Source: Intoshia linei (lineage: Eukaryota > Orthonectida > Rhopaluridae). From it: a stretch of 28,279 bases of DNA. How positions within the stretch are numbered: the first letter of the stretch is position 1; the number at the start of each line of letters is the position of its first letter. The stretch covers positions 1 to 28,279 of the forward strand of contig LWCA01000445.1 of NCBI GenBank assembly GCA_001642005.1. The letters are read 5' to 3'. Positions 4,377 through 25,035 of the stretch are shown piece after piece. A program made the translations under genes and the position numbers. The notes beneath the pieces are model-generated. The model saw only the letters and a program-made list of their open reading frames with translations. It did no database searches and was not told where the DNA came from.

Positions 4377-9766
<5,390 letters not shown>

Positions 9767-9936: not shown

Positions 9937-12900
9937 ATGCCTTTGAAAAAACTTTTAGTAAGACAATATCGTTGTCGATCGGTTTATAGACCAATCAATG
10001 CTGGTAATTAAGTTGTTTCCGATTTTATAGTGATTTAGATTTCAATATTCCTGCTAGAATTGATCGGTTATTGATTTAATTCTAAATATTTTTGTTTAGA
10101 AAAAGTACAGATATACTTGAAACTTTGTCTAAATCCATTAAACAAGTAATCGATTTTTTTACTTGCTTTAAAATTCAATTAGACTAAGAACACGTTAAAT
10201 TACAATTTTATTGATGATCCGCACTTGATCAATCAGTCTAGCTTGGTAATGTTTTCATTTATTTTATTAATTCATTTGAAGATGTATTTGGCTCTTAATA
10301 AGGCTTCAGGGAGAAAAACTGCCAAATTCGTTGTTGATCAATATTCGCATTTATTTTTTAATAACCCAACCGTTCCTAAAGTTGAGGTATTTATTTTTAT
10401 TTAAATTTTTTAAATTTTTTAATTAGGCTTTTTCTTCTCTTAAGCATAAGGAAGATCCACCAGAATTGAATAAAACTAATTTTACTGCATTTCAAGATTA
10501 TTTAGCCCAAAGGAATATTCCAAAATGTATTGAACTCTATCAGCTTAATGCTGATAGTAATGGTAATGGTAATTTGATCATTTTTAGTTGACTCTGAATT
10601 TCATTATCCTTGAAAATAAATGATATTTTTGTCGTTTCCAATTGAGCATCGTCGCCAATATAATGTAGCAAGTTTTTCGTAGACTGCAATATGAATCCAC
10701 TGTTAATCTACATATTAGGGTGGTTCATTTTAGTGTTTTTTTTTAATTTCAAAAACTATTTTTGCATACCATCCACATTTGGTATAAGTAGGAGCATGCC
10801 ACAAAAAAAATTTATCTGCCCTGTCAGGGTAAAATGTATTTTTTTTCATAATCTTATTGTTTTTTTTTGGAATGTTTTTTTTCTATGATCTTTGACAACC
10901 TGTATCAGGTTTTGCTTGGAATCTTCATTTATTGTATCAAAATTTTAGTACTTTTCAATCTATGCCTATTAGGATTGTTCGATTTTTACTAAAAATGATT
11001 TTTATTGAAAATACCCTATATTTGGTGATATATTTGAAGATGGTACTTAAAATTCCTAGAAAATATATTTTTATAAAAAATTACCGTTAAAACATTTTTT
11101 TATGTTTTTATAAGCTTTTTTCAAATTATTACATATATCGTCATATTACTTGTAATCAGGTATTGGAAATACAATGTAATTGATTAATTCCAATCTCTAA
11201 TTCTAATTTAATTTAACTGTGGTGAGTTTTACATTATTGTATAGATAAATGGAAATTGGACGAGAATATGATTGAAGAGTTTTTTAGTTTAATGTGCTTT
11301 TCAAATTCTGATCAATTAAACATTGAACTTGAGAGAGAAGAAAACACATTCTTATCTAATGATAGTGAAAAATTCAGTGGAAATACTTGGAAGTAAATTA
11401 TATGTACATTGTGAAAGTATATCAGCGGTTCCCATATGAGTGTACTGTGGTCTCTAGGGGTCTGCTTCACAGGGAATACGTAGATTTCTGGGGTTGAAAT
11501 TTTATATCTATTTCAACTAGAATAAGCTGTATAAGAATAATCTTTTTTTTTTTAATTCTAGAACCATTAATTAGTTTAAATTTTTGTTTTAATAAAATAC
11601 TTTCAAAAAAAATAAATACCAAATGATTTTTTAACCGTGAAGGCATCACTTTATGAGTTTAAAAAAAGATAATATGGTGTTTTGATAGTGAAAATACAAT
11701 TTTTGGTTGTTGTGGTCCTTACTTATATAAAATTGAATGTGTGTCTTGCAGTTATTTTCAATGACTGAGATTCCTAGAATTTTAACAAACACAAATTCCA
11801 TTCCGGGCAGAAATTAAAATAAATTTCAATCTCAGAAACTTACCAATTCCCGGTCAAAAACCCAATTATTTTTTTTTTAAAATCAAACGAGTCCTAGAAT
11901 TTAAAAAAATATACACTCTGATACTAGGGATGACAAATAACCGGAAAAAAATTAACCGGTTAATTAACCGTTAAAATTTATTAAACATTTTTAAAAAATT
12001 TTAAAAAGTCGAGACAGAAAAAATTTATAATATTTTAAGAATATTTCCAAATGAATTTAAAATGAAGGACGGCAGTTTAATTTGTATCAAATGCAATTGT
12101 GATGTCTCATTTGAAAAATTATATTATGTGCAGAGTCATAAGTCGTCTGTTAAACACAAATCATTAACTTTGAATGATACTACTATAATTCGTAAATATC
12201 GCAAATTAAAAAGTGATTTTGCCATTGACATAGTAGAACTTTTTGCCTCGATAGACATACCCTTATACAAATCTATCTGATACAGAGTTTAAAATCATTA
12301 GCATGCTAATAAATTTTAATTTCAAAAAGATATATTTCCATTTATGAGATGATAAAACCCAAATGAAAAAAGTATTAGAATATTATAAAACATACTTTTT
12401 ATGATTTTTTTAAATTATTAATCGCAATCACAAAACAGTTCATTTTCATGATCAAAACTCCTATACCCTTTTTTAAAAAATGAAAATAGGCCTAGAAATT
12501 TAATAAAATTACACACATACATTTATCTCGAGTTAATACACAAAAAATTATCCCAGAATTTATTTCAACTTATATACTTGTATATAATATGCTACGCTAT
12601 TTTTGTTTGTATGTGTGTGTTACGCTTTATTTAAATAACTATTTGTCTTAGAATTTTATAAAGTCCACATTTCAATTACAGTTTTTTCCGGGACGTATAA
12701 TAAGATAAATTTCAACCTTCCAAACTCACATCTTACGGGTCAAAAACCCCAATTGTCCTTCTTTTTGAAAATCAAATGAGTTGGAGAATTTAAAAAAATA
12801 TATACGCTGATACGGATTTTAAAATCATAAACATTATCATACATTTAAATTTAAAAAAATTATATTTTCAGGGCCAAAACTACAAATTACCCTTATTTTT

Positions 12901-15900
12901 TTAATGAAAACAACCCTAGAATTTAAAAAAATGTATAGGTTTTTATAATTTTATTTTTTTCTGGAATTTATGAGATTTTTTAGGATTGGACTGTTTATAC
13001 TTTATTTTTAATATTATACACACATTCTGTCTAATAAATTAAAAAAGTTTTAACTTTATTTTTAATATTATACACACATTCTGTCTAATAAATTAAAAAA
13101 ATGGGATTACAATTGTTTTTAAAATTCTTTACGCAAATGTTAAACAAAAAATTAAGATGGAATAATTTAGTTTAAAGTATAAAATAAATTAGATATGATG
13201 GTTTCAACTGAAACAAATTTGGGAACCACTCCTTTAAAGGATTGATAATAGTTGATAGTAGGATTTTTAAGTTAGATTTTAAATGTGAATTTATTTTTTT
13301 GGTATAATAAAAATGTGCCCTTGGCAGAGCTAGGTGCTGTTTGTACGTAGTACATAACAGTCAACCTATATTTTATAAAGTTTTAGGACATGTTCATAGT
13401 TAAAACGCATTCCAGAATTTATGTTTTATTAACTTTTTCGGCTAATTTTATTTAAAAAAAGGGTTAATTGGGTTTTTGATCATGAAGAACTCAAATTCGT
13501 AAACTGAAACAGATATAAACATGACATGCGAAAATCGGTATTAGAAATTTGGTTTTGTTAAATTCTGGGACTGTAATGTTATAAATATGCGGTAACAAAC
13601 ATTATGTGTGACACATAGACATTCAATTTTATATAAGTAAAGGATTCCTCCTTAAATCGAAACATTTGAAATATTAAAATGTGGGATAGACAAGATTGTA
13701 CATTAATTTTGAAGTGATGGCTTCTGTAGAGTATTTAACCCCGGAAAAAACTGTAATGGAAATGTGGAATTTTTTAAATTCTAGGACTCTTAGTTGTTGA
13801 AATAAACTATAACACATACAGACAAATATAGAGTTTTATACAAGTTAAAAATCATAACTTGTGACAAATAATAATATTCGAAAAATATGGGTTGATAATA
13901 TATTAAAAGTTATTTTTTACAGTGAACAGTGATTTTTGTTTTTTAAAATTTTTCTCTGAAATATCATATAAAAAGAATCAATGCTAAAATTCTTTTTTGA
14001 CTGTACAAGAGTCACTTTGTCAGATTGAAATTTTTTGTGCATGTTAACTGTATGAGCTGTAATTTTGTCTAAAATACTCTGGGGTTCGGCATTATAAACA
14101 GAAATAATAAATATTTAATGTAATTGACTATCCTTACTTAGATAATGTAATAGTTGCTGAAAATGTGTGGGTGTGTTTACTACTTTTATATTGAGTATAT
14201 TTAGAAACGAAGGATTTGCGGATAAATTTTTTTCAGAAATTGAAAAAACGGATAAAATTTACAATATTTATTTGTGTGGTCTTTGCAGGGTAATTTTTGT
14301 TCATTTTGATATTGTATAATTATGACTAGTTTGGTGACACTGTCAGAGCTAAAGAGATTTTTGAAGAGATGGATAATAATGTTAAAAGTTTTATATTGTG
14401 TTATACTATTATTATTTATTTGTTTTTAGTTTTCAAGTCATCTTATGATGCTTATATCAAAATTATTTCATATATGAATAACAACAGTTCATGGAATTAT
14501 GTAAAGGTGAGATTTTAATTTGAGAGTTACATATTTGTTAATTTAATCAATAATAAGTCATGACCGATTCTTGATAATTTTTTAGACAATTTGCAACAAA
14601 ATTTCTAAAGATGGAATATCTCCGGATGTATATACATTTGAGGCATTGTTTCAGTATCTCAGTGCGGTAATGTCAAGTCGAGATTACAAAAAAAAACTGG
14701 CTGTAACTCTCACGACAACTATGAAAAATATGAATATAGGTTATTATAATTTGATAAATTGTATATTTGTCTTTAGAAATTTCATTATCCTGCCTTTATC
14801 ATTTATTGGACATATTTTATTCTAAATATTGTATAAATTTTTTTTAACCTGGTAATAAAATGTAGCATACGAGGAAAAAATTGCGTATCAAGTTTTTGAT
14901 TATGTCAAATCTGCCAAAAAGGACAACTTAACGCAAAATTCTTATCATTGTAATTTCATTTTTTTGATACTATCCTTACTTTTATAAATTTTAGATAAAT
15001 TTCTTCCAAAATTGATGAATATCGTATATCACGTTTTCGATTTTTCTACTTTATTTAGGCGGCACAAAAAAAGGATTTTAAATTTGCCACACAAATTAAC
15101 AATCTTTTGAAAGCTAGTAATATGGAATTGCTGGGAGATAATTTGAGTATTTCGCTATATTAGTACTAATATGATGATTGTGATACATTTGAATTTAGTC
15201 ATCATTATCTCTTACTATTGTATCAAAACGTCAATTTGCATAATTTCTTTGAAATATATTCACAAATTGTACCCAACGTATCATTTTAATTTCAGAGTTT
15301 AAATATACTAGATATATGTTCCAAATAAAAACTATATGATAACATTATTAAAAGATGTTTTAAATCGAGGCCCTGGTCATTTGGAGGGTTTATTGATGGG
15401 TAAAATATATATTTTATCTTATTTATTTTTTTAATAGATATTCAGGATTTAAATTTACAATTATCTACACTGCCGACAGTCTTAAACCATTTTAAACAAA
15501 TTTTAAATAAATCGCTTTCAATCGATAAATCTGTATCTTTATACATTTATTTTTAAAACATTTGTGATAGACCCATAATGTTTTAAAATTTTACTTAAAA
15601 TCTTTATCAAGCAGTATAATTTCCAATTCAATGCCGAATCGATTAAAAATTATAAAACCTTATGCTCTTCACATGTTTGTATTAATTTATTATTTTATAT
15701 TTTTAGTAAAAATATTTCAGGAGATGATCTAAGTACTTTATTTGAAGCATTAATGTACTTTGAGCATAATAAAAATGTTGGGTTTGTTTTTAAAAGATAC
15801 GTATTAATTTAATTTTAGTCTTATTTTTGAACAGTACATGGATTATAAAAATGACATTGTTGGCTATTTAAGGTATTTTAAGTATCCATTCTGTATTTAT

Positions 15901-16123
15901 TCATTTATAGACCAAGCTGTGTTTATCAACTTTCTAAAAAATTTTGTAGAAATAACCTCCAAAGCTTTTCGGTAATTTTTAAAATAATTTTGATGCCACG
16001 GGTTAAAGCTTCAAAAAACTATGTATTGTGATTATTTCATTTTAAAATTAGAATTGTCTTTTGTTGTGTGAAGAGGTTGGATATGATGATATTTCAAAAA
16101 AAATTAAATGTATTGAAGTGTAA
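9937..16123 (+). CDS. PTCD3: PTCD3-like mitochondrial PPR protein (mS39), 23 exons, ~621 aa
   Basis: PTCD3 (mS39) is a PPR protein of the small mitoribosomal subunit. Exons: 9937-10003, 10039-10066, 10100-10145, 10183-10245, 10282-10386, 10427-10562, 11245-11392, 14205-14289, 14330-14387, 14430-14506, 14586-14739, 14777-14830, 14866-14949, 14995-15023, 15059-15162, 15199-15277, 15312-15399, 15438-15532, 15571-15674, 15707-15781, 15819-15872, 15911-15971, 16052-16123. All junction phases agree. The N-terminus (MPLKKLLVRQYRCRSVYRP) is basic without acids, like a mitochondrial presequence. Diagnostic stretches: NFIDDPHLINQSSL, SGRKTAKFVVDQYSHLF, GISPDVYTFEALFQYL, KFATQINNLLKASNMELLGD, SGDDLSTLFEALMYF. 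Length is near the human 689 aa. Eighteen of 22 introns are 32-45 nt. The exon 6 donor is ambiguous (10556, 10562 or 10568, all in phase), and the last junction is the least certain. Confidence 0.88.
10563..11244. other. PTCD3 intron 6, A+T-rich
   Basis: A 682-nt intron if the middle donor is used. It contains runs of T and a stretch near 10716-10870 with a GGGTGGTTCATTTTAG-like start, but no paired terminus. No gene or confident element was identified. Confidence 0.5.
11926..12275 (+). mobile_element. Internally deleted hAT element with perfect TSD
   Basis: The octamer TCTGATAC stands on both sides (11918-11925 and 12276-12283), an exact 8-bp target-site duplication of hAT type. Copy B of repeat R shows the same place uninterrupted (GCTGATACGG near 12817). 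The left end starts TAGGGATGACAAATAACCGG, followed by AACCGGTTAATTAACCG, resembling a known hAT terminus style. The right end is only ...CTA. The 350-bp element keeps the first part of a transposase gene and nothing after it. Confidence 0.8.
12062..12280 (+). pseudogene. hAT transposase N-terminal fragment (BED/CGGBP1-like finger)
   Basis: A 72-codon frame with a zinc-finger-like C-x2-C (CIKC) and H-x5-H (HKSSVKH), then DFAIDIVELFASIDIPLYK. That last stretch matches the region of hAT transposases that reads DF...... F....IPL.K. Family transposases are several hundred residues, so this is only the DNA-binding start. The stop codon is created beyond the element's right end, inside the target duplication. 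It cannot catalyse transposition. Confidence 0.7.
12583..12945 (+). repeat. Repeat R, copy B (in PTCD3 intron 7)
   Basis: Same order of blocks as copy A: TATAATATGCTACGC, TG-rich tract, AGAATTTTATAAAGTCCACA, TTTTTTCCGGGA, GGTCAAAAACCCCAATTG, ACGCTGATACGGATTTTAAA, and a tail with ACAACCCTAGAATTT. The 5' end is diverged from TCCTAACTT. Confidence 0.75.
13000..13101. repeat. 54-bp tandem duplication, two copies
   Basis: A block of about 47 nt starting CTTTATTTTTAATATTATAC and containing CACATTCTGTCTAATAAATT occurs at 13000 and again 54 bp later. The two copies read the same apart from their trailing edge. It is a recent local slippage or replication duplication inside an intron. Confidence 0.85.
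13395..13830 (-). repeat. Repeat R, inverted diverged copy E
   Basis: Reads as the reverse complement of R: GGGTTAATTGGGTTTTTGAT near 13463, CCCCGGAAAAAACTGTAATG near 13740, then GAATTTTTTAAATTCTAGGA. It lies in the same intron as forward copy B, so the transcript could fold the two together. Boundaries are approximate. Confidence 0.55.
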
Positions 16124-16426
16124 TTACAATAAATTTTACTTATTTCAATGTTCAAGGGATACCAGACCGCCAAAACTGATACTGTTTAAAATTTACAAAA
16201 AAATACTTTTGTTAATTTTTGACTTAAATATTTGTATAAAAAATAAAAAAAATGTTATTCATTTGAAATATTAAATCGTAAAAAAAGTACACATTGTATT
16301 TTAAATGTGACATCATTAATTCAATCAAAATTACAACATTAGATTAGCAATACGGTATTTAAAAACATGAAAACAACCTAATAACACTAAAAACGTAGAT
16401 TCGCAGACGAAAAAAAAAAATACAAA
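16124..16426. other. Convergent intergenic spacer, PTCD3 / ING
   Basis: About 300 bp between two genes that meet tail to tail. It should hold both 3' UTRs. No other feature is seen. Confidence 0.6.
16128..16133 (+). terminator. Candidate polyadenylation signal of PTCD3
   Basis: AATAAA four nt after the proposed TAA stop codon (16121-16123). The position is close but usable, and it mildly supports the last-exon model. Confidence 0.4.
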
Positions 16427-17694
16427 TTAATTTTTTAATAAACAATTGTTACAATACCATTTTCCTTTAGGTTGCGTCTTTATTCCAGCACATTCATAAT
16501 GAAACCATTCTAACATACATTCTTCGTTATCACAACCAATCATTAATCCATAAGATACTTTGTTGCAATAACAATATCTAAAATAAAAATTACAGTAATA
16601 CAGAAACTCACCCATTCAATGTTGATAACCTCGAAAAATATAAAATACCTTGGTTCATTTTCATCAATTGGCATATCGATAGTTTCTGAACACGACATGA
16701 GTAATAATGGTAATCTACTAGCTTCGGCGTCAGTTAATGAATAATTATGAGATTTATTGTTTTCTTTATTAAAAAGCGTTTGCTGGTATTTATCAAGATT
16801 TTCTGCATTCAACATTCTGAATAAAATTTTATCGTCTTTTAATTGATTTTCAAAACGTAAAAGATCCTTATCCAATTTGTTTATTTGATTGTCAATGAGG
16901 GTATATGAAAAATCAGATATCTTTACTTTTTTTTTAGATATTTTGATCAGTTTCTCAGCTGATGATTTAATAGAATTCCTTGTTTTCATTCTAAATTACG
17001 ATTAAAATAATCATATATACAAGTTATACGTTTAGGATACGCTTGTTTAAATAGTATATCGTGTGAAAAAACGTAAATACATATACATTTATATACTTCC
17101 CAGTCTGAACTATTTTATGGTCACAAGTTTTAATTTTTAGTTAATTTATATTATATTAATAATATATTCTTTTTGAAGACGAACATTTAACTACCCCTGA
17201 ATTAAATAAAAGTTAATTAATAAAGGGGTGAAAAATAAAAAAGATTAATAAACACGACGTGGACATAACAAAACCAAATTAAACAATTTATAATATAAAT
17301 GAATATTGATAATATCAACCAATAACGGTTGATTATCAGCATCATCGATTTAATTTATATTCAGAAAATAAAATCTAATTCGTTTGAATCAGAATTTTAC
17401 TATTTTGTAGTGGAAACCCAACAGAACCAATTACGATCATACTGTGCAAAGTACATAGTATGTACCATATACGTTAAACTATCATAAAAATTTAAAAAAT
17501 TACAAATTTGAGGTTGATTTATTCTTTTTTGATTTGATATAATCTTCCCATACATTATCTATTTCATTTAACCCATTAACATAGGTTTTATTTAAATTTG
17601 TTAAATCATTCAAATATTGTTTCAACTGTACAGGTATTTCATTTAGTACGTCAAAGCAACTATCCAGATACAAAGGAGAAAGTTTTGATCCCAT
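16427..17694 (-). CDS. ING4/5-type chromatin reader with PHD finger, 3 exons, 227 aa
   Basis: ING proteins sit in histone acetyltransferase complexes and read H3K4me3 in the nucleus. Exons: 17694-17504, 16990-16649, 16577-16427; phases agree (684 nt). The N-terminal ING domain reads [17 protein letters not shown] and continues as a coiled helix. The second part, [13 protein letters not shown], parallels the LDTDLARFEADLK of ING4/5. A short linker leads to [10 protein letters not shown] and a C-terminal PHD finger with all eight zinc ligands: C180, C182, C193, C198, H204, C207, C220, C223. Aromatic-cage positions Y179, M190 and W202 are kept, so H3K4me3 binding is likely. Human ING4 is 249 aa. 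This protein lacks the lysine-rich tail after the finger, ending in LLKN. The EPRYC junction also recalls ING3, but the short length and DMP motif favour ING4/5. Introns are 513 and 71 nt. Confidence 0.9.
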
Positions 17695-21500: not shown

Positions 21501-24500
21501 ATGACCAAAGTTGCATCAGAAACTACAACTTTGCCAAAAATTATATATGGAAAATCAGACGTATTGCCACAAAGTGTTATCAAATTTGTTGAAAAATACT
21601 GTGATGTTTGTACTCCACATAATTTACATTTTTGCGATGGATCTCAAAAAGAATATGACATGTTGACTCAAAAATTAGTTTTAAATGGAACTATCAAACC
21701 GTTAAAGAAATATGATAATTGGTTAATCTTTATTGTAAATAAAAATATTCAAATCATAAATTATAATTTATATAAATGCATCAAATTGATACTATTATTT
21801 AAATTAATTAACAAAGGTTTTAATTTAATTGACCACTTAATTGAAATTCCAGAGAATTCAAAGAATAGTTAACATAAATTATTCTAGATTCTAGAATGTC
21901 GTTCTTACTTATATTTATTATTTAGTTGGCTCGCTCGAACAGATCCTCGAGACGTTGCTCGTGTAGAAAGTAAAACTGTTATATCATCAAGTAACAAACG
22001 CGACACAGTACCATTAATATCTCACGGAAATTTGGGAAATTGGATTTCTACAAGTGCCCTTGAAGTAATTTAATTTTAGTTTTTAATTCAGATTAGCATT
22101 TTTTAGTTTAAGTATAGGGCGGTGGTTAGTAGCATGTTTGCCATATCATCTAAAGTTATATGATAAATTTAATTCATCATGGACTCGATCTAATCCTTAG
22201 ATTATAAGGAATTAACCATTTCGTCGCGTCTTCAGTATATTTTTGAAATTTTTAACGTTTTCAATTTAAAGATTCTGTTTGTTTCTCCCCATGTTATAAT
22301 TTCTTTTTTAATATTAGTTATTGAAGCAGAGGTTTTTGAAATGCTTACGCGTTCTTTGGCTGTCATCATGTAACATGATTCAAGTTAATGTTTCATCAAT
22401 ACGCATTTGTTATTTTTTATGTTGCTGGGATTAGTGTGATGTACTCTTTGCTATGGTAATAATTAATAGATTTTCATTTTTTTGATCGAGGGTTTTGGTT
22501 TATTGAAATTTTTATCAATTAATTTGTAATATGTTAGTAGCAAGTCGAGGTTCAAAACAGATTTATTATAAATTTTATAACAATTTAATTGTAAGTTGTG
22601 AAAGTGGAATGTATCACACCGTGTAATTTACACGTTAAATTTTATCAATTGTTTACAAGTTTACTTTTTTGTTTCACGATTTTGTCATTGAAATTGTCAT
22701 TTTAGAAAATATAAATATTTCATTGATAACACAGTAGGGTGTCCATTTTTTGTATTAGAAAGAGCTATTTTACACGTGGATGTCTTTTTTGATTATAAAC
22801 ACTTATCCAAAAAAAAAATTAAGAAAAACACGGACATAAACTTAAATTTAGCCATATTTTGTTAATTACTTAATTGATAAAGCGGTTTTTGACATCGTGA
22901 TTTCTATTCAAAAATACACATGATCTACCTGGTACGTGTTGCAAAATCGTAAAATTTAAAATAAATGTGGTTTTTAAATTCAACACAAAATAATTGATAT
23001 TCTTTTTACTTATTTTTTTAATATTCAATTTGAAAAATCAGATCGCCATTTTACAAAAAATTCGTGTAGGTCTTTCAGAAGAGGGGTATCGGCGTGGTAG
23101 ATTCGGGTCTAAAACTACAAAACTGAAACCCTACTATACAGTTTAAAATGTACAAAGGGCCGATTCGACTGGTCAACCTGTCTAAATCGTTCATTTATTT
23201 GAATTAAGGTTTTGTTATTTTTATGGAACAGGATGATGACATTGACTACTTTTTTTTAAGTAGCCTTTAAAAGGAAATTGTAGATTATCATATTTTTTTA
23301 AATTTTGGACATCTAGTTCTACCGTCACACCCATTTATTACGTCTTGGATTGATCATGAGTCATGACTTATAGAATACAGTATGTTAATGAATTAATTTT
23401 TAGATTGAAAAAAATAAAAGATTTCCAGGTTGCATGAATGGAAGAACAATGTACATTATACCGTTTGTGATGGGACCATTGGGTGGCCCCCTGAGTAAAA
23501 TTGCTATTCAATTGACAGATTCAGCGTATGTAGTAATGTCAATGAGAACCATGACTAGGATGAACCCTGAAGTTTATAACTATATTAATAAGGGTGATAG
23601 TTTTGTCAAATGTGTACATTCGGTAGGTGTTCCCAATCCTTCATCAAAAAATAATTCTATAACATGGCCATGTAATCCAGAATTAACCATGGTAGCACAT
23701 GAACCTGAAAAAAACACAATAATGTCATTTGGAAGTGGCTACGGAGGAAATTCGCTGTTAGGTAAAAAGTGCTTAGCTTTAAGACTTGGAAGTATTATGG
23801 GTAAAAAAGAAAGTTGGTTAGCAGAGCACATGTTAATATTGGGAATTACATGTCCAAATGGAAAAAAAAGATATGTTGCAGCCGCTTTTCCAAGTGCATG
23901 TGGAAAAACCAATTTAGCTATGATGAGTGCCACATTGCCAGGTTATAAGATTGAATGTATTGGAGATGATATTGCATGGATGAAATATAACAAAGCAGGA
24001 GAATTGCGAGCAATTAATCCAGAATATGGCTTTTTTGGTGTTGCTCCAGGTACATCAGATAAAACAAATATCAATGCAATGAAGACAATAAATCGAAACA
24101 CTATTTTTACAAATGTTGCTGAGACCGAAGATGGCGATTTTTATTGGGAGGGTTTGCCATTACCGAAATCTAAAATAACATCGTGGTTGGGTAAAGAATG
24201 GAATCCCAATTCTTCAAATACACCTGCAGCTCATCCAAATTCTAGATTTTGTGTTCCTGCGAAACAATGCCCAAATATTGATGACCGATGGAATGATCCA
24301 AACGGTGTACCTATTGATGCTATAATTTTTGGTGGAAGACGATCTAGCCATGTTCCTTTAATTTATGAAAGTTTTGATTGGAATCATGGTGTTTTCATTG
24401 GTGCATCAATGAGATCTGAGGCCACTGCTGCTGCTGAGCATACAGGTATTTTGATTATTAATTAATTGCAACTTTTAATCAACTTGTTATACTGTTGTAT

Positions 24501-25035
24501 TACGCTATTCACATAAACTACATAATTTTAATTTAAATTATACTAATTTATATTTTTAGCTAAAGTTTTAATGAATGACCCTTTTGCAATGAGACCATTT
24601 TTCGGATACAATTTTGGTGACTATTTACAACACTGGTTAAATATGGGAGACAAATCTAAAGACAGTAATTCTAATCGTATTGTACCAAAGATTTTTCATG
24701 TAAATTGGTTCCGAAAATGTGAGAAAACTGGAAAATTTTTATGGCCAGGTTTTGGAGAAAATTGTAGAGTTTTAGATTGGATTATAAGGAGGTTGGATGA
24801 CAAAGACAATAAACTATGTAATGCATCACCGATCGGCTACTTACCAAAATTCAATACTTTCAATTTATCTAATCTTACAAATATTGATATGGAGCAATTG
24901 TTTTCATTGTCAAAAGAGGCATGGCTAAAAGAAACCGATGCTATAAATGCATATTTAAAAAATTCTGTTGGCGAAGATGTTCCATCAGAAATTACAAAAC
25001 AGTTGTTAGAATTACGTAGTCGTTTAATCAAATAG
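21501..25035 (+). CDS. PEPCK: Phosphoenolpyruvate carboxykinase (GTP), 4 exons, 625 aa
   Basis: Converts oxaloacetate and GTP to phosphoenolpyruvate, CO2 and GDP, the committed step of gluconeogenesis and glyceroneogenesis. Exons: 21501-21721, 21926-22064, 23404-24445, 24560-25035. Phases agree (1878 nt), and the length matches the 622-aa vertebrate cytosolic enzyme. Visible signatures: [12 protein letters not shown] (R86 region), [13 protein letters not shown] with metal-ligand lysine K242, LAEHM (H262), P-loop [11 protein letters not shown] with reactive C286, IGDDIAWM (D309), FGGRR, the GTP-pocket region [20 protein letters not shown] (W517, F518), and [16 protein letters not shown]. No catalytic residue appears lost. 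The N-terminus [13 protein letters not shown] is not an obvious mitochondrial presequence, so cytosol is more likely. A TTTTTTTAG acceptor-like site at ~21462-21471 hints at a spliced 5' UTR. Introns are 204, 1339 and 114 nt, none in the micro class. Confidence 0.96.
22110..22200 (+). repeat. Possible tRNA-derived SINE fragment
   Basis: GGGCGGTGGTTAGTAGCATG followed by TTTGCC resembles the 5' part of tRNA-derived SINEs (A-box region), and GGACTCGATCTAATCC about 55 nt later resembles a B-box (GGTTCGANNCC) with changes. It is not a foldable functional tRNA as far as I can see. There is only one copy in the window, so the call is weak. Confidence 0.3.
22731..23315. mobile_element. Possible MITE with GTAGGGTGTCCA ends
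   Basis: GTAGGGTGTCCATTTTTT at the left and AATTTTGGACATCTAGT at the right form an imperfect inverted repeat. The motif CTAGGGTGTCCACTTTT also occurs at about 7018 in the SRPK intron. The interior is non-coding. Boundaries and class are uncertain. Confidence 0.3.

Follow-up and report, generated by a model that had tools for sequence, protein, structure and literature searches.

Introduction

Miniaturised spliceosomal introns have been described in dicyemids, simplified parasitic spiralians whose introns have a median length of 27 base pairs (bp) and lie below 30 bp in about two thirds of cases (PMC6543705, PMC6736024). The introns of the orthonectid Intoshia linei have likewise been reported as short, most of them longer than 30 bp and with a median of 57 bp, in a passage that gives no mode, lower edge, donor sequence or U1 description (PMC6543705). 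Here we analyse the introns of the gene for PTCD3 (mS39) on one complete I. linei contig of 28,279 bases (C363, hereafter the window), and compare them with splice sites and small nuclear RNA (snRNA) genes across an assembly of 34.65 Mb in 1319 contigs. Because short I. linei introns are already in print, the class of 32–45 nucleotides (nt) that we find here is not new in kind. The more unusual features are the loss of G at donor position +5, the TAG acceptors and the presence of variant U1 genes.

Other systems resemble this one in part. Kudoa (Myxozoa) is also a parasitic animal with a compact, AT-rich genome, although it is a cnidarian with longer introns (49 and 61 bp are listed in the cited text) and therefore an independent case (PMC12239612). 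The ciliate Stentor combines exceptionally small introns with conventional U1 and U2, its U1 carrying ACUUACCU, whereas I. linei additionally has altered U1 ends (PMC9505925). Human short introns that depend on SPF45/RBM17 are comparable in that special 3' recognition is needed, the model intron of 56 nt being longer than the I. linei class (PMC8363638).

Ultra-short introns in the PTCD3 gene

The PTCD3 gene extends over positions 9937–16125 of the forward strand and comprises 23 exons and 22 introns. Its junctions were placed with the public protein P0122 as a guide ("PTCD3, mitochondrial [Intoshia linei]", in full Pentatricopeptide repeat domain-containing protein 3, mitochondrial), and after removal of the 22 introns the resulting frame of 623 amino acids is identical to P0122 letter for letter. 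The product is matched by the Pfam family mS39 (PF22330) with an E-value of 3.5e-30, obtained with a 605-amino-acid version that lacks one exon. Eighteen of the 22 introns measure 32–45 nt, while the remaining four measure 79, 80, 676 and 2812 nt. The original prediction had arrived at the same count from the letters of the DNA, and the fit to P0122 reproduces it, together with the exact ends of the three examples then cited (15675–15706, 10067–10099 and 15278–15311). Adding the five introns of the public SRPK protein P0124, four of them short (40, 38, 45 and 34 nt; the other is 2102 nt), gives a set of 27 annotated introns, 22 of which fall at 32–45 nt.

None of these segments occurs in the public proteins, and the frame is preserved when they are taken out. 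We conclude with high confidence that they are genuine introns, spliced by the major (U2-type) spliceosome, and that they form a sharply bounded class of about 32–45 nt with a mode of 37 nt, accompanied by a broad longer tail. The competing explanation is that the short segments are not spliced and reflect annotation artefacts, or insertions and deletions in coding sequence. In 15 of the 18 cases, however, retaining a single short PTCD3 intron leads to a premature stop, and with 15873–15910 retained the frame runs on beyond the end of the sequence slice. Two introns could stay in place without an early stop (10246–10281 and 14388–14429): both are multiples of three, so that retention merely adds amino acids. 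For the first of them the Pfam score scarcely changes, retention of its 36 nt costing 1.7 bits (105.7 spliced, 104 retained). As Pfam barely distinguishes the two forms, the evidence for this intron is the public protein P0122. On the other hand, the best solved mS39, aligned over residues 29–442, is gapless at the introns 15163–15198 and 15278–15311, and the length peak described below is missing from control DNA. An unspliced origin of the class is therefore highly improbable.

All PTCD3 intron positions given here rest on the spliced fit to P0122. In 5'-to-3' order on the forward strand, the gene opens with five short introns: 10004–10038 (35 nt, GTAATT..TTAG), 10067–10099 (33 nt, GTTATT..TTAG), 10146–10182 (37 nt, GTAATC..TTAG), 10246–10281 (36 nt, GTAATG..GAAG, absent from P0122) and 10387–10426 (40 nt, GTATTT..TTAG). 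They are followed by the two longest, 10569–11244 (676 nt) and 11393–14204 (2812 nt), and then by 14290–14329 (40 nt, GTAATT..CTAG), 14388–14429 (42 nt, GTTTTA..TTAG), 14507–14585 (79 nt) and 14740–14776 (37 nt, GTTATT..TTAG). The second half of the series begins with 14831–14865 (35 nt, GTATAA..GTAG), 14950–14994 (45 nt, GTAATT..TTAG) and 15024–15058 (35 nt, GTATAT..TTAG), continues with the two introns that are also colinear with the solved mS39, 15163–15198 (36 nt, GTACTA..TTAG) and 15278–15311 (34 nt, GTATCA..CTAG), and proceeds through 15400–15437 (38 nt, GTAAAA..ATAG) and 15533–15570 (38 nt, GTATCT..ATAG) to 15675–15706 (32 nt, GTTTGT..TTAG), the shortest among the 27 annotated introns. 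The last three are 15782–15818 (37 nt, GTTTGT..TTAG), 15873–15910 (38 nt, GTATTT..ATAG) and 15972–16051 (80 nt). An open frame of 72 amino acids lies at 12062–12279 within the 2812-nt intron; its Pfam match is sub-threshold.

Length class across the genome

The genome size of I. linei is published as 41.6 Mb (PMC9218549) against the 34.65 Mb searched, so the searched copy is probably partial. COX1 was not found in the searched assembly, and we suppose that mitochondrial DNA is absent from it.

Among the 146 kinase-domain matches listed, neighbouring match pairs define 36 junctions, whose estimated lengths are 34–41 nt in 11 and 29–53 nt in 16; some of the longer ones (e.g. on contigs C811 and C836) are inserts inside one open frame, not introns. 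Raw distances between splice motifs show a weak excess at 36–40 nt. A much sharper picture is given by a self-trained gene model, which combines three-periodic coding, splice matrices and a geometric, monotone prior on intron length and was trained on 39 stretches totalling 263,020 bases, the window among them, with the annotation unused. On this DNA the trained model predicts 407 introns, 105 of them at 35–39 nt, as compared with 46 introns (3 at 35–39 nt) on reversed DNA and 26 (again 3) on dinucleotide-shuffled DNA. The peak persists in a flat model whose splice matrices are reduced to GT..AG (93 of 437 introns at 35–39 nt). Run on 295,271 bases, the gene model assigns a posterior of at least 0.8 to 280 of 458 introns. 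The lengths of these confident introns are at most 32 nt in 12, 33–45 nt in 156, 46–60 nt in 35 and above 60 nt in 77, with the mode at 37 nt (22 introns). The lower edge is steep, a single confident intron lying at 28–32 nt against 70 at 33–37 nt.

The claim of a tight intron class is thus upheld outside the window by a peak at 33–45 nt that control DNA lacks. The original prediction had named a genome-wide distribution without a peak near 35–40 nt as the outcome that would speak against it; the gene model finds such a peak. The same class, including the kinase junctions at 34–41 nt, bears out the view that the spliceosome of this animal handles ultra-short introns routinely. The further proposal that they lie near the steric lower limit does not hold, since the dicyemid median of 27 bp (PMC6543705) means that shorter introns are within reach of an animal spliceosome; the edge near 32–33 nt is the floor of this lineage. 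Dicyemid introns are shorter than those of I. linei, where few predictions fall below 32 nt, and a majority under 30 nt is not seen here: none of the 27 annotated introns is so short, and only the 12 of the 280 predicted introns are at or below 32 nt. The comparison points to a floor set by each spliceosome for itself, not to a single physical limit. Introns of this size are a test of the smallest spacing at which U1 and U2 fit together on the same RNA.

Several points weigh against the conclusion that the class is real and sharply bounded. The fits of PTCD3 and SRPK permitted GT..AG termini only and report one solution per protein, so other splits may yield the same protein, and the public proteins P0122 and P0124 may themselves be partly predictions. 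The sampled stretches are not random, consisting of kinase loci, chunks from mostly the same contigs and snRNA flanks, and the training DNA included the window. The 12 predictions of 18–31 nt are either shorter introns or errors. In addition, the model recovers exactly only 15 of the 27 annotated introns (14 at a posterior of at least 0.8) and none of the three longest; because it misses these, its median of 42–45 nt is too low in comparison with the published 57 bp. Within PTCD3 and SRPK, 14 of the 16 predictions made at a posterior of at least 0.8 are exact, including all 12 of the short ones.

Elsewhere in the assembly, contig C1064 carries four similar 69-nt introns, two of them identical, a pattern that tandem repeats inside one gene would give.

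Splice-site signals

The metazoan donor consensus carries G at +5. Confident introns of 28–60 nt in I. linei depart from it: from -3 to +3 their donors read A (54%), A (58%), G (53%), then GT and A (79%), and the three positions after GTA are A 54% or T 39%, T 52%, A 27% or G 14%, and T 55% or A 33%, which gives a predicted consensus of GTA[AT]TT. G at +5 occurs in 3 of the 27 annotated introns, in 14% of those of the trained model and in 11% of those of the flat model (221 introns of 30–60 nt), so that most donors do not have the metazoan-type G, and the donor signal as a whole, AAG|GTA followed by A or T, is weak.

The commonest donor, GTAATT, accounts for 45 of 216 GTA donors (21%) as compared with 7.6% of 527 GTA decoys within introns, an odds ratio of 3.2 (P 9e-7) in the trained set. 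In the flat model it is used by 23 of 146 GTA-type introns (P 7e-4), and it is the donor of 6 of the 27 annotated introns. GTAAGT and GTATGT are enriched about fourfold yet rare (7 and 8 of 216), and of these two only GTATGT stands out in the flat set. GTAAAT is enriched 1.9-fold (P 0.05 in the trained set, 0.03 in the flat set), whereas GTATAT is depleted, with an odds ratio of 0.44 (P 0.02 in the trained set, 0.27 in the flat set). No class-specific bases were found at +6 to +9 of the predicted donors.

At the acceptor, T occupies -3 in 96% of the trained-model introns, and NTAG forms are found in 193 of 221 flat-model introns and in 26 of the 27 annotated ones. All 27 annotated introns can be placed with GT..AG termini, the only ones that the fits allowed. 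No branch-point consensus was found in the predicted introns; TAA is somewhat denser 11–15 nt before the acceptor in flat-model introns, in a diffuse manner. The interior of the 33–45-nt introns has a GC content of 13%.

Splicing here probably proceeds by intron definition, with donor and acceptor recognised as a pair spanning the intron. U1 and U2 would then be bound side by side on the very AT-rich RNA (13% GC), the branch site would be diffuse and lie about 11–15 nt upstream of the acceptor, and the first good TAG beyond it would be used. The small genome would be subject to a deletion bias that shrinks introns to the shortest span still cut efficiently by this spliceosome, about 32–33 nt, and the steepness of the lower edge would follow from this.

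snRNA genes

The canonical recognition sequences of U1, U2 and U6 are all in the genome. U6 is present in two identical copies with ACAGAGA and U2 in three copies with GUAGUA. Rfam identifies six U1 genes (L048–L053), four of them above the gathering score, and a U1 3'-stem pattern occurs at nine places in the genome, its reversed form at none. The canonical U1 end, ACUUACCU, is found in L048, L049 and L050. The other three genes have altered ends. L051, whose 5' end was placed from the Rfam match and the promoter spacing, starts UCAAUUACCU, with position 4 changed from C to A, and is complementary to AGGTAATTGA. L052 starts UUAAUUUACU, matching GTAAATTAA. Shifted by 5 nt, L053 would start UUAAUAUACG, matching GTATATTAA. 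The Rfam scores of these three are 74.3, 58.4 and 36.3 bits, respectively, against a gathering score of 69.5. Two further L053-like loci, L060 and L061, have UUAAUUUACG at the same place; the Sm-like site of L060 and the U1A loop of L061 are altered, and another locus, L059, carries an internal deletion. Canonical and variant genes may share a contig, L048 lying with L051 on C1088; L052 and L053 are together on C813, L049 is on C621 and L050 on C166.

The six aligned U1 sequences all keep AUUGCAC, and L051 has both the U1A loop and the Sm-like site (AUUGCAC and AAUUUAU). Standard pairs fill 94.2% of the pair cells in the alignment, and both sides have changed in 14 of 38 pairs, a level reached by none of 500 shuffles; as the six sequences are related and themselves yielded the consensus structure, this count is not a probability. 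Folding energies are unexceptional, the number of shuffles out of 200 that fold equally well being 12 for L051, 3 for L052, 23 for L053 and 44 for the canonical L049. The snRNA promoter element stands 71 nt upstream in L049–L052 and 76 nt upstream of the Rfam start in L053. L048 has a variant of it at the aligned place, and both U6 genes share it.

Stem-loop I differs among these genes. AUCA, the motif of the U1-70K loop, is kept by L048 and by the variants L051–L053; the stem-loop of L049 and L050, both with canonical ends, is without it and reads GGACAAGAGG. For METTL16 (PF05971), the U6 methyltransferase family, the I. linei assembly gave no match, a weak negative, and the LUC7 family gave six matches on two contigs, C1037 and C605. 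With such tiny exons and a partial assembly, neither result is decisive.

Donor sites and U1 variants

U1 snRNAs with variant ends have been described from planarian and human, the stem-cell-enriched planarian form being changed at the -1 contact (PMC6312358, PMC5159530). In L051 of I. linei the change is at the +5 contact and matches the commonest donor of the genome. From this match we infer that U1 and donors may have co-evolved in I. linei: U1 would have diversified in step with its donor sites; one variant at least, L051, would pair with U at +5 and serve the dominant GUAAUU donors, and the canonical U1 would serve the rest. We consider this possible, if somewhat doubtful. The alternative is neutral drift, in which AT pressure eroded the G at +5, the donor came to need little beyond AAG|GTA, and the U1 variants are decaying duplicates with no role at the donor; to this we give even chances. 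The excess of GTAATT bears on both. Being about threefold above decoys taken from the same AT-rich introns, and significant in the trained and flat sets alike, it speaks against drift and agrees with a U1 whose end is complementary to the commonest donor; positions +5 and +6, on the other hand, are near the intron background, as drift would have it. The state of the genes is similarly divided. L051, the best preserved of the variants, exceeds the Rfam gathering score and retains AUUGCAC and its promoter element, and the paired double changes make simple decay less likely for the six aligned genes, with the reservation that the consensus structure comes from those same six sequences. However, L052 and L053 fall below the gathering score, folding energies are not exceptional, the deletion in L059 and the altered sites in L060 and L061 have the appearance of decay, and variants share contigs (C1088, C813), as tandem duplicates would.

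The fit between U1 ends and donors is mixed, which suits drift better. Canonical U1 best separates donors from decoys (mean pairing score 6.30 vs 5.18), while the separation is close for L051 (6.47 vs 5.55), weak for L052 (6.21 vs 5.83) and reversed for L053 (5.21 vs 5.63). Some variant outscores canonical U1 in 75% of the donors but also in 88% of the decoys. L051 predicts G at +7, where GTAAT donors carry T (59%), and GTATAT, the match of L053, is depleted in the trained set, though not significantly in the flat set. The wider idea that all three variant ends read donor classes accordingly failed for L053 and was weak for L052 in these pairing scores. Drift under AT pressure is thus the stronger explanation, and co-evolution of L051 with its donors a candidate.

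If the candidate were correct, the first step of splicing would be partly re-coded, donors having moved from GTAAGT to GTAATT while the +5 contact of a second, intact-looking U1 went from C to A to match them; we put this forward tentatively, as less likely than not on present evidence. Such re-coding might amount to a natural, genome-wide compensatory change between U1 and the 5' splice site in an animal with dominant 33–45-nt introns, a prospect we hold to be equally doubtful. Should the U1 variant indeed read the donors that have drifted, this animal would offer a natural example of an snRNA and its splice sites changing together, and this joint change would be testable in existing cell-line assays. 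Among the literature matches listed, which took in few subscription journals and had the genome papers of I. linei and I. variabili outside their scope, there was no description of orthonectid U1 variants or donor drift.

Other genes of the window

The annotated part of the SRPK gene (A3Q56_03667, 361 amino acids) occupies 4377–7721 on the minus strand, as placed by spliced alignment to P0124. The same fit gives its five introns, all on the minus strand: 4691–4724 (34 nt), 4888–4932 (45 nt), 5041–5078 (38 nt), 5306–5345 (40 nt) and 5521–7622 (2102 nt), the last of which is in the annotated model. The expectation of short introns in this gene is therefore confirmed in four of five cases, while the count of seven in eleven was not reproduced because P0124 begins at an internal ATG. 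In the PEPCK gene one intron is firmly placed, of 114 nt (24446–24559).

The stretch 2325–2666 on the minus strand weakly matches the dimerisation region of hAT transposases (E 0.0097, under the Pfam cut-off). At 16428–16989, also on the minus strand, a gene of two exons separated by one 71-nt intron is predicted; its PHD-finger and ING matches are weak and do not reach the Pfam cut-offs.

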